Notes under the pieces: generated by a model
Told to the model about the DNA's origin: nothing
What the model saw: the letters and a program-made list of their open reading frames with translations, nothing else
Database searches by the model: none
NCBI GenBank assembly: GCA_003214175.1
Contig: QCLZ01000002.1
Location: 62,001 to 126,000, forward strand
Origin: Prochlorococcus sp. AG-418-I20
Lineage (GTDB): Bacteria; Cyanobacteriota; Cyanobacteriia; PCC-6307; Cyanobiaceae
DNA: 64,000 bases
Reading direction: 5' to 3'
Made by a program: the position numbers and the translations under genes
In this document: in pieces, positions 3,195 through 36,832 of the stretch
Position numbering within the stretch: position 1 is the first letter of the stretch
Layout of the letters: the number at the start of each line of letters is the position of its first letter

Positions 3195-3296
3195 TTAATA
3201 TTGTTGTTTGTAGCCATTCCAAGTTTGATTCAACCTTAATCCAAGATATGTAATTAAGATGCTCCAAAAAAGAATCTCTAAACTTAAATTAGTCAT
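3195..3296 (-). CDS. single-helix membrane microprotein, 33 aa (copy A)
   Basis: 33 codons: a hydrophobic helix (ILFWSILITYLGLRL) followed by a short polar tail ending YKQQY. A strong SD (AAGGAGGGAAAG) precedes ATG. It is nearly identical to the 33-aa gene at 5554-5655, and its first ~20 residues match the + strand gene at 3836 (MTNLGLE-type start), so this is a three-member family. Probably an inner or thylakoid membrane protein. Function unknown. Confidence 0.7.
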   Translation of the reverse strand: MTNLSLEILFWSILITYLGLRLNQTWNGYKQQY

Positions 3297-3835: not shown

Positions 3836-3997
3836 ATGACCAACCTAGGATTAGAGCTTCTTATATTGACAGTTTTGTTAATTTATTTTGGCATTTTTAT
3901 GACACAAAATTTTTACCAACAAGGTATGAGAGCTAATCTACGCAAAAACATTTTTTGCGTTAAATCACAAATTAATCCCTATTGCATAAATGAGTAG
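3836..3997 (+). CDS. membrane microprotein, 53 aa, with Cys tail
   Basis: 53 codons. SD AAAGGAGG lies 10 bp before ATG. The N-terminus MTNLGLELLILTVLLIYFG is a paralogue of the 33-aa membrane microproteins at 3195 and 5554. It is followed by a basic region and a short C-terminal segment with two Cys (NIFCVKS...PYCINE). One predicted transmembrane helix. It is followed 35 bp later by another SD-led microgene at 4033, so the two probably form a pair. Confidence 0.65.
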   Translation: MTNLGLELLILTVLLIYFGIFMTQNFYQQGMRANLRKNIFCVKSQINPYCINE

Positions 3998-4898: not shown

Positions 4899-5417
4899 TC
4901 AAGGAGAGATTTTATCAAATATCTTTGTTTTGCCAGTTTTACTAAATGAAACTACTTTGTAGTTCTCATAATCATGAGAGTGCGATTCGTGAGAATGCAT
5001 TTCCATTCCTGGAGAGCCAAGTGGCATGCCTGGAACTGCTATCCCATTGACATTTGGTTTTTCTCTAAAAAGTTTGTTGATTGATTCAATCGGGACATGT
5101 CCTTCAATCTTATAGTTAGCTATTTGAGCAGAGTGACATGATCTCAGATTATTGGGTATTTGATATTGGTTTTTAATTACTGAAACATCCTCAACTATAT
5201 TATCAACAACTTCTAATCCATTATCTCTTAAATGATTGATCCATTTTTTGCAACAACCACATGATGCTGATCTGTAAGAAACAACTTTTGGGATATCTAT
5301 ATTTTCTTGAGTTAAAGCAATACTTTTATTTGGATTAATTATATTTGTAAAAAGAATTCCAGAAAAAATTAGATAATTTAAAAATCCTCTTTTAATAAAT
5401 ATTTTATTAAGTGCCAT
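4899..5417 (-). CDS. DUF411 periplasmic metal-binding protein
   Basis: 172 aa. N-terminal signal segment (about residues 10-35), then the DUF411 core: SASCGCCKKWINHLR (CxCC site), CHSAQIANYKIEGHVP and GIAVPGMPLGSPGME. A His/Met-rich stretch MEMHSHESHSHD follows. DUF411 proteins are associated with copper and other metal resistance. It leads a three-gene minus-strand operon with the DUF3721 and PepSY-like genes. Family assignment is firm; the metal is not determined by sequence. Confidence 0.87.
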   Translation of the reverse strand: MALNKIFIKRGFLNYLIFSGILFTNIINPNKSIALTQENIDIPKVVSYRSASCGCCKKWINHLRDNGLEVVDNIVEDVSVIKNQYQIPNNLRSCHSAQIANYKIEGHVPIESINKLFREKPNVNGIAVPGMPLGSPGMEMHSHESHSHDYENYKVVSFSKTGKTKIFDKISP

Positions 5418-5553: not shown

Positions 5554-5655
5554 TTAATACTCTTGTTTGTAATTATGCCAAGTTTGATTCAACCTTAATC
5601 CAAGATATGAAATTAGGACTGTCCAAAAAAGAATCTCTAAACCTAAATTAGTCAT
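5554..5655 (-). CDS. single-helix membrane microprotein, 33 aa (copy B)
   Basis: 33 codons, with about 80% of residues identical to the copy at 3195. The helix is ILFWTVLISYLGLRL and the tail ends YKQEY. The SD (AAGGAGC) is weaker than in copy A. Conservative differences (S/T, I/V, N/H) suggest selection on the protein. Part of a ~240-bp duplicated block. Confidence 0.68.
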   Translation of the reverse strand: MTNLGLEILFWTVLISYLGLRLNQTWHNYKQEY

Positions 5656-6197: not shown

Positions 6198-6272
6198 ATG
6201 AAATCTTTAAAAGGGTTATTTAATAAAAAGGAGTTCGATCATTATTTTTTATGCAGAAGATATAAAAATTAG
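6198..6272 (+). CDS. possible 24-aa basic peptide
   Basis: ATG to TAG, 24 codons, basic (MKSLKGLFNKKEF... CRRYKN). No clear SD, and its end overlaps the convergent 31-aa gene by 4 bp. Listed only as a candidate; the rest of 6041-6197 shows nothing I can assign. Confidence 0.2.
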   Translation: MKSLKGLFNKKEFDHYFLCRRYKN

Positions 6273-6364
6273 CGTTTCATTTTAAAAGTAAAGTATGCAA
6301 ACCCACCAAGCAATAAAAGACTCACAACCCCATAAGTAATCGCTATGCCGTATATGTACGTCAT
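6269..6364 (-). CDS. single-helix membrane microprotein, 31 aa (third gene of micro-operon)
   Basis: 31 codons, MTYIYGIAITYGVVSLLLLGG then a short basic end FKMKR. Its ATG overlaps the TGA of the preceding (frameshifted) reading frame as ATGA, a sign of translational coupling. It has no SD of its own, in line with coupling. Function unknown; small thylakoid or plasma-membrane subunit is a guess from size and topology. Confidence 0.55.
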   Translation of the reverse strand: MTYIYGIAITYGVVSLLLLGGFAYFTFKMKR

Positions 6365-6500
6365 TTATTTATAAAGACATAAGCAGAACATAAATAAACT
6401 AAGAAAAATCCAATAGCAATGGAACTTCCATAAATAAGAAAGTTCCAAAATCTATATAATTTAGGTTTTTTAAGTTTTTTTCTTGTTCTTTATTAATCAT
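6361..6500 (-). CDS. membrane microprotein, 46 aa if read with a -1 frameshift
   Basis: From the ATG at 6500 the zero frame gives MINKEQEKN and ends at a TAG (6399-6401) after 33 codons. The -1 frame is open from that point to a TGA at 6361 and encodes a convincing protein: basic start KLKKPKLYRFWNF, then the helix IYGSSIAIGFFLVYLCSAYV. The two frames overlap at the heptamer A-AAA-AAC (within a run of seven A, minus strand of 6475-6481), a classical X-XXY-YYZ slippery site. Both ends are coupled to neighbours by ATGA overlaps, which only makes sense if the shifted product is made. It could instead be a single-base deletion or a sequencing error in the A run. Confidence 0.5.
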
Positions 6501-6613
6501 TTATTTTCTTTTTCTTTTCTGGCAGCATTACCTTTTGCTCTTAATACCAAAGTTATCGTAAGGGCAGCGCTTAATATCACAGCATCAATTAATAGGTGCG
6601 GGGAAATATTCAT
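6497..6613 (-). CDS. membrane microprotein, 38 aa (first gene of micro-operon)
   Basis: 38 codons: a hydrophobic helix LLIDAVILSAALTITLVL then the basic tail RAKGNAARKEKENK. The stop TGA overlaps the ATG of the next gene (ATGA). A -10-like TATAAT lies 28-33 bp upstream. Heads a three-gene cassette of one-helix proteins (38, 46 and 31 aa). No family recognised. Confidence 0.6.
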   Translation of the reverse strand: MNISPHLLIDAVILSAALTITLVLRAKGNAARKEKENK

Positions 6614-35670: not shown

Positions 35671-36222
35671 TTAAGGATTAATTTCAATCTTTTCCCATTT
35701 CTTAATCTTTTCCCATAGATACCTTCTATGAATAGGATGTTCTAATTTAAGAAGATCTACTGAATCGATTTCAAAATTTAGAACTACAAAATTTTCTGAC
35801 TTAGGTAGATTGAATTTTATTTCATAAGAAGATTGCACTTTTGGGTTAATTCTCTCTCCAGGAGATCCCCAAAACCAAGAAGATTTTGATTTTTCAGATA
35901 ATGTATCCCAGTAATTTTTGTTATCAATTAGTTCATTTATTTTTCCTTTGAATCTATATTGCGATTTCGTTTTCAAAAAGAACCATAATATTTCTGCATT
36001 AGGGTTAGATTTGAAATGCCCAATTTTTTCACTTCTTCTATCTGTAAAAATAATCATTGAACTATCTTTATACCATCCTCTGAAAACAACCGTTCTTAAT
36101 CTTGGCTCATTGTCTTCGCTAACTGTTGCAAGCTGTATCCATCTATTAGAGGGTGATCTTCCCTCTTTTTTTCTAGAGGATTTTAAATCTTGTCTCCAAC
36201 TTGGTAAGTTGGTATCAAGCAT
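35671..36222 (-). CDS. pyridoxamine-phosphate-oxidase-like FMN-binding protein
   Basis: 183 aa from the ATG at 36222. A longer start at 36276 would overlap the upstream gene by 62 bp; the shorter begins MLDTNLPSWRQDLKSS as family members do. FMN-binding split-barrel features: WIQLATVSEDNEPRLRTVVFRGW, FTDRRSEKIGHFKSNPNAEILWFF, QYRFKGK. Alr4036-type PNPOx-like flavoprotein of unknown substrate. Overlaps the upstream methyltransferase-like gene by 8 bp, so cotranslated. Confidence 0.8.
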   Translation of the reverse strand: MLDTNLPSWRQDLKSSRKKEGRSPSNRWIQLATVSEDNEPRLRTVVFRGWYKDSSMIIFTDRRSEKIGHFKSNPNAEILWFFLKTKSQYRFKGKINELIDNKNYWDTLSEKSKSSWFWGSPGERINPKVQSSYEIKFNLPKSENFVVLNFEIDSVDLLKLEHPIHRRYLWEKIKKWEKIEINP

Positions 36223-36832
36223 TGAATCTAGGCAAAATAAGGCCGCTTTTCTTTTTGTATTCTTCGAATGAATCATATTTTGAGAGCGATTTATCTTTTT
36301 TTATCATTCTTGGAAGAAAAACTATAGAGAAAAATATTGCAAGAATTACTAATGGAATGAAACTCATTGAAAGAATGGCGAATGATAGATAAATTAGTAT
36401 TTCTCCTAGATAATTTGTATTCCTTATATTTTTGAAAAATCCTTCTTTGATTAGTTCTTTTTTAAATTTAAGAGAAAAATATTTTTGGGCATCGCTAGCA
36501 AAGTGTAAAAATACACCAATTATGTTTATAGATACAGATGCAGCTATGACGATATTTGGAACAGATTTCTGAGATGAGATAAGAATGTAGGGGGCTACCC
36601 AGTAACTTCCAAGGAAAATAAAACCAGTAACTGAAGTTAAAAAATTGATTTTTTCTTTAAAATAAGGATCCGGAAATATCTTTTCTTTTAGAAGCCAGAG
36701 TAATCCATATGTACCATGCAGAGCTAAATAAACGTAGGGAGCGATTGTGAAATTATCAAAAAAGATCATGAGACCTACCACTACAAATGCTGTGAGCCCC
36801 TTATGAAGATTAATTATTTGATTAAGTTTCAT
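36215..36832 (-). CDS. ICMT/DUF1295-like membrane methyltransferase
   Basis: 205 aa with five hydrophobic helices. The C-terminal half carries the isoprenylcysteine/phospholipid methyltransferase pattern: FLHFASDAQKYFSLK, GFFKNIRNTNYLGEILIYLSF, YDSFEEYKKKSGLILPRF. SAM-dependent modification of a lipid or lipophilic compound is likely; substrate unknown. First gene of a pair with the PNPOx-like gene. Confidence 0.78.
   Translation of the reverse strand: MKLNQIINLHKGLTAFVVVGLMIFFDNFTIAPYVYLALHGTYGLLWLLKEKIFPDPYFKEKINFLTSVTGFIFLGSYWVAPYILISSQKSVPNIVIAASVSINIIGVFLHFASDAQKYFSLKFKKELIKEGFFKNIRNTNYLGEILIYLSFAILSMSFIPLVILAIFFSIVFLPRMIKKDKSLSKYDSFEEYKKKSGLILPRFNA

Follow-up and report, generated by a model that had tools for sequence, protein, structure and literature searches.

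Three overlapping small genes

The analysed window is a 64,000-nucleotide stretch of Prochlorococcus sp. AG-418-I20 (GenBank assembly GCA_003214175.1, contig QCLZ01000002.1, positions 62,001 to 126,000; G000:C2:62001-126000). It is A+T-rich, with 30% G+C, and belongs to a 1.50-Mb assembly of 24 contigs that is 95.6% complete. Three small genes lie next to one another on its minus strand: gene A (6497-6613; 38 codons, MNISPHLL...), gene B (6361-6500) and gene C (6269-6364; 31 codons, MTYIYG...). A and C are intact and encode small hydrophobic proteins; B is present as a frameshifted allele. The end of A and the start of B have the sequence ATGA in common, and the TGA that closes the -1 frame of B (6363-6361) overlaps the ATG of C, confirming the first-pass annotation of this DNA, which had described three small genes linked by ATGA overlaps. 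It had also called the products one-helix proteins, and on the Kyte-Doolittle scale each predicted peptide is sufficiently hydrophobic to form one helix: the best 19-residue means are 2.17 for A, 1.91 for B (scored on the form of an intact relative) and 1.92 for C. These hydrophobic stretches suggest that A, B and C are small membrane proteins, perhaps with an accessory role in a membrane complex.

In the zero frame, B comprises 33 codons and ends at a TAG at 6401-6399, as had been claimed. It is open from end to end only if the reading frame is shifted by -1, which was likewise borne out for the allele in the window. Since the -1 frame contains TAA at both 6495 and 6492, the change of frame must come after these two stops; beyond them, the -1 frame holds no further stop and no further indel as far as the TGA at 6363-6361. 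A run of seven A (6481-6475) follows the two stops and, together with the adjoining C at 6474, holds an A AAA AAC heptamer in the zero frame. The otherwise open -1 frame means either that the break is recent or that some rescue exists, the latter counting against plain decay.

Profile searches placed none of the three proteins in a known family. No Pfam family was found above its curated cut-off for A, B (in the form of an intact relative) or C, the best match of B being NDUF_B12 (E 0.019, 15.2 bits against a cut-off of 22.7). Searches of NCBIfam and PHROGs likewise gave no match at the curated cut-off for A, C or the C-terminal 38 residues of the B in the window; the best matches were C to PRK08126.1 (E 0.089) and A to phrog_33583, of unknown function (E 0.017). 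A conserved stretch of gene A was found in 55 named records, 53 from Prochlorococcus and two from Synechococcaceae, with MIT 9107 and MIT 9314 among them. Most of the 55 bear AG- names, which we take to denote single-cell genomes. Among 300 genomes of the family, A was matched in 26, of which 24 belong to the same genus; the two matches outside it fall in one other genus and are marginal (E 0.007-0.008). One of the 24 matches in the genus, that in G022, reached only E 0.008 and has a stop inside. A DNA search of 23 genomes from 23 other families of the class gave no match, and no title listed in literature searches deals with the A-B-C operon.

Other small reading frames lie close by. In some relatives (L263, L272), C is followed by an ORF of 37-41 codons that begins MKDFLDKFF... 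or MKDCLDKFF... and ends in REYADRLD plus one residue; the window (6200-6269) lacks it, and G024 (L017) has a shortened end after C like that of the window. Related small ORFs of 33-53 codons beginning MTNLGLE or MTNLSLE recur on both strands near the operon (3195-3296, 3836-3997 and 5554-5655), and a 172-codon DUF411 protein (4899-5417, minus strand; Pfam E 6.1e-24) adjoins the small genes. Elsewhere in the window, two overlapping minus-strand ORFs at 35671-36276 and 36215-36832 were considered as a split gene and rejected as such; they match different families (pyridoxamine phosphate oxidase; DUF1295 or steroid dehydrogenase) and so are two genes.

Gene B in related genomes

At a limit of E 1e-10, a DNA search of the genus found matches in 204 of 266 genomes; with the C-terminal part of B as query, and at E 0.01, there were matches in 184 of the 266. 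One copy of B was read per genome (n=184), comprising 156 copies from 158 aligned loci and 28 more that were classed by eye; the other two aligned loci, L025 and L026, have A and no B. In 167 of the 184 copies (147/156 and 20/28), B is intact in one frame of 45-46 codons. Fifteen copies, that of the window included, are broken, and two were not classed: the N-terminus of the G149 copy is unusual, and the G280 copy lies at the edge of a contig. The counts treat L101 and L142 as intact, their indels lying at the very end of B and leaving products of 46 and 45 residues, and L139 as broken, its C-terminus being changed. Five genomes (G021, G073, G115, G136 and G256) gave two matches to B each and were counted once. 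In G256 (C12) the counted copy (L165) has a nonsense codon and the other is open over 46 codons, in G136 (C5) one copy is open and the other match has a stop, and in G115 the second match has a stop. The search with the C-terminal part of B found only one match, and hence no second copy, in the assembly of the window genome (95.6% complete).

The central claim of the first-pass annotation, that B needs a -1 frameshift, is not supported by this survey: in 167 of the 184 copies B is read in one frame without any shift. The comparison of A-run lengths that it had called for also turned up the pattern it had itself named as refuting its reading: in G167 (L050) the run has eight A, and B is read in a single frame as GAA AAA AAA TTT AAA AAA. 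Aligned with the intact relatives, the B of the window is one base shorter. A typical intact gene begins ATG ATT ACT AAA GAA GAA GAA AAA GAA TTT AAA AAA CCT, and that of the window ATG ATT AAT AAA GAA CAA GAA AAA AAC TTA AAA AAC CT. The alignment places the deletion at the seven-A run (gap at reference position 24), the exact base being ambiguous inside the run.

The 14 other broken copies among the 184 are of differing kinds, which indicates that B breaks often and by different routes, although many of these relatives are draft assemblies and some of their breaks may be errors. Of all 15 broken copies, nonsense codons account for four (G190, G085, G004 and G256). Single -1 losses in a frame that is otherwise open also number four, namely the window, G060, G066 and G146. 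Six copies either bear more than one lesion or are poorly conserved and interrupted by a stop (G251, G076, G143, G086, G286 and G031), and in G228 the C-terminus is altered. The loss in G060, a single-contig genome of 1,738,790 bases, is independent of that in the window; in the alignment it falls elsewhere, and the heptamer left behind is A AAA AAG.

Substitutions were counted in 150 of the 158 aligned loci (all except L019-L026), so that the comparison covers nine of the 15 broken and 141 of the 167 intact copies. The reference for the window was the consensus of its 25 nearest loci, and the deleted base itself was left uncounted. Against this consensus, A in the window has no change, and C has one nonsynonymous and one synonymous change, neither of them private. 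B has five nonsynonymous changes and one synonymous; four nonsynonymous and no synonymous changes are private, a small count from one allele. At least four private nonsynonymous changes are found in 5 of the 141 intact alleles. When private changes were pooled, the ratio of nonsynonymous to synonymous changes in B was 43:12 in the nine broken loci and 146:106 in the 141 intact loci (one-sided Fisher p 0.003, or 0.009 without the four nonsense changes, both values being rough because the loci share ancestry and dependent changes are treated as independent). Gene A showed no such shift at the same loci (11:11 and 102:95, p 0.65, equally rough). Pooled over nine of the 15 broken copies, and with rough p values from related loci, this pattern points to relaxed selection on broken copies of B. 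The nonsynonymous excess favours a genuine deletion in a decaying B over a fault in the assembly.

One competing explanation would be an error of sequencing, amplification or assembly at the seven-A run in a genome that really has an intact B. Homopolymer runs are error-prone, and among the 184 B-bearing genomes read the allele of the window is confined to a single one. An error would leave unexplained why B has four private nonsynonymous changes and no private synonymous one beside an unchanged A, and an independent one-base loss exists in the single-contig G060. We regard an error as unlikely, and infer that the deletion is biological.

The slippery heptamers and the hairpin

The A AAA AAC on which the first-pass annotation had rested its case is indeed present in the zero frame, at 6480-6474. 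It is not the only one, a second zero-frame A AAA AAC, which had gone unnamed, lying at 6471-6465. Intact copies of B commonly have TTT AAA AAA CC in frame, and loss of one base upstream turns this conserved sequence into TTA AAA AAC, so that the heptamer is a by-product of the deletion. Deleting each base of codons 2-9 in turn in the 147 intact aligned alleles gave 3528 simulated losses; a usable zero-frame A AAA AAC resulted in 2854 of them (81%) and an XXXYYYZ heptamer of some kind in 3270 (93%), the zero frame then ending most often after 27 or 33 codons. Three of the four single -1 alleles found in nature have a zero-frame XXXYYYZ heptamer (A AAA AAC twice in the window, A AAA AAG in G060 and T TTA AAG in G146), in line with the simulated rate; G066 has none. 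Nor is the heptamer avoided in other ORFs of the window: in-frame A AAA AAC was observed seven times against 4.6 (sd 2.1) expected after codon shuffling. This count covers 46 ORFs, drawn from the 48 listed with 120 codons or more by setting aside two that overlap others.

Downstream, a stable structure of the kind that the first-pass annotation had proposed to look for was found. The stretch after the slippery site folds better than its shuffled versions (z -3.55), mainly on account of a predicted 10-bp hairpin within the coding sequence of B (6420-6447, minus strand). Its position and distribution fit a frameshift stimulator poorly. The hairpin begins 17 and 26 nt past the two heptamers, not 5-9 nt, and it is present in intact relatives: all nine tested pairs are kept in 98 of 156 alleles, and, as 147 of these 156 alleles are intact, most of the 98 must be in-frame relatives and the hairpin must predate the deletion. 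PMC5009743 notes that many studies of slippery sites have focused on a spacing of 5-9 nt and that spacers vary. The minimum free energy fold also contains a weak outer helix of 5 bp, at a shorter distance from the second heptamer. Across 104 distinct segments from relatives, the median z against random synonymous versions is -2.1, with 80% below -1, and most alleles have kept AAC as one of the stem codons; of the pair types listed, a compensatory change (G-C to T-A) occurs in only one allele. The hairpin could be a conserved mRNA element.

Programmed or tolerated -1 frameshifting at A AAA AAC, setting a ratio of 33- and 46-residue products, would thus have in its favour two in-frame heptamers, a hairpin downstream and a -1 frame that is open as far as the overlap with C. 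Against this, only broken alleles need a shift (two of the 184 copies being unclassed), and the two-frame arrangement is not conserved in orthologues, 167 of which use one frame. The deletion by itself accounts for the heptamer, which other ORFs do not avoid, and the hairpin is ancestral and lies outside the 5-9 nt spacing. With one-frame relatives, a deletion-derived heptamer and an ancestral, badly spaced hairpin, programmed frameshifting is rejected as the main reading, and we consider it extremely improbable. The first-pass annotation had listed it together with polymerase slippage and a recent one-base deletion; it is the last that gained support.

Transcriptional slippage at the seven-A run would give a minority of transcripts one extra A and so yield some full-length B. 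According to PMC5009743, 12-50% of the transcripts are frame-corrected in the case of frameshifted genes that carry long poly(A) runs in two insect endosymbionts, and PMC5574713 describes transcription insertions within A or T runs as increasing exponentially with run length. The run in B (6481-6475) has seven A, compared with the runs of nine A or T given for bacteria in PMC5009743, and PMC5574713 reports that it detected no frame-restoring transcription error. The excess of nonsynonymous change in B also speaks against a rescued product, and slippage is in our view highly improbable.

There remains a weaker form of rescue, in which the tandem A AAA AAC and the pre-existing hairpin, or slipped transcripts, would provide a few percent of full-length B. 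We judge this very unlikely. If it were true, B would have broken at a leaky site in three of the four single -1 lineages, which might explain both the tolerance of the loss and the persistence of an open -1 frame.

Probable loss of gene B and comparison with known systems

Taken together, the allele in the window is most probably due to the recent loss of one base from a small gene that is dispensable and has been lost repeatedly. In relatives, B is a plain frame of 45-46 codons between A and C and is predicted to encode a single-helix membrane protein. The window genome would have lost one base in the A-rich stretch near the start of B. Ribosomes starting there would produce 33 residues ending in a tail unrelated to B and terminate 34 nt before C; full-length B would be lost or nearly so, and C may lose its translational coupling. 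On this reading, B is dispensable and decays repeatedly in the genus. We infer that no useful amount of B is made in the organism and that C may be affected by the break.

Of 150 loci, 146 have an open A of 36-44 codons, and four fall outside that range. C has lost its start or is shortened in 13 of the 150, a count that includes loci where only the ATG is lost and another start might serve. Nine of the 150 loci have a broken B, and in four of these C is broken as well, which is above expectation (p 0.003, in a set of related loci).

Two points reach beyond this locus. A-rich coding sequence easily yields a false signal of programmed frameshifting, because TTT followed by in-frame AAA AAA CC becomes A AAA AAC once a base is lost upstream. 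Very small Prochlorococcus genes that decay repeatedly also bear on the annotation of small proteins.

As a probable frameshift pseudogene, B is of an ordinary kind. It resembles the frameshifted pseudogenes of A+T-rich bacteria in the loss of one base from an A-rich stretch, in its intact one-frame relatives, in its repeated loss and in its nonsynonymous excess; it differs from them in being tiny, in having no family above a curated cut-off and in a decay so recent that the remaining frame is still open. With the programmed -1 sites of dnaX and IS elements, it shares an X_XXY_YYZ heptamer in the zero frame and a downstream hairpin, but its two-frame arrangement is not conserved, its heptamer was made by a deletion, and its main hairpin is ancestral and outside the usual spacing. 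The poly(A) slippage rescue of Buchnera and Blochmannia, as set out in PMC5009743, likewise involves a frameshifted gene, an A run and an A+T-rich genome, whereas the run in B is seven A rather than a long tract.
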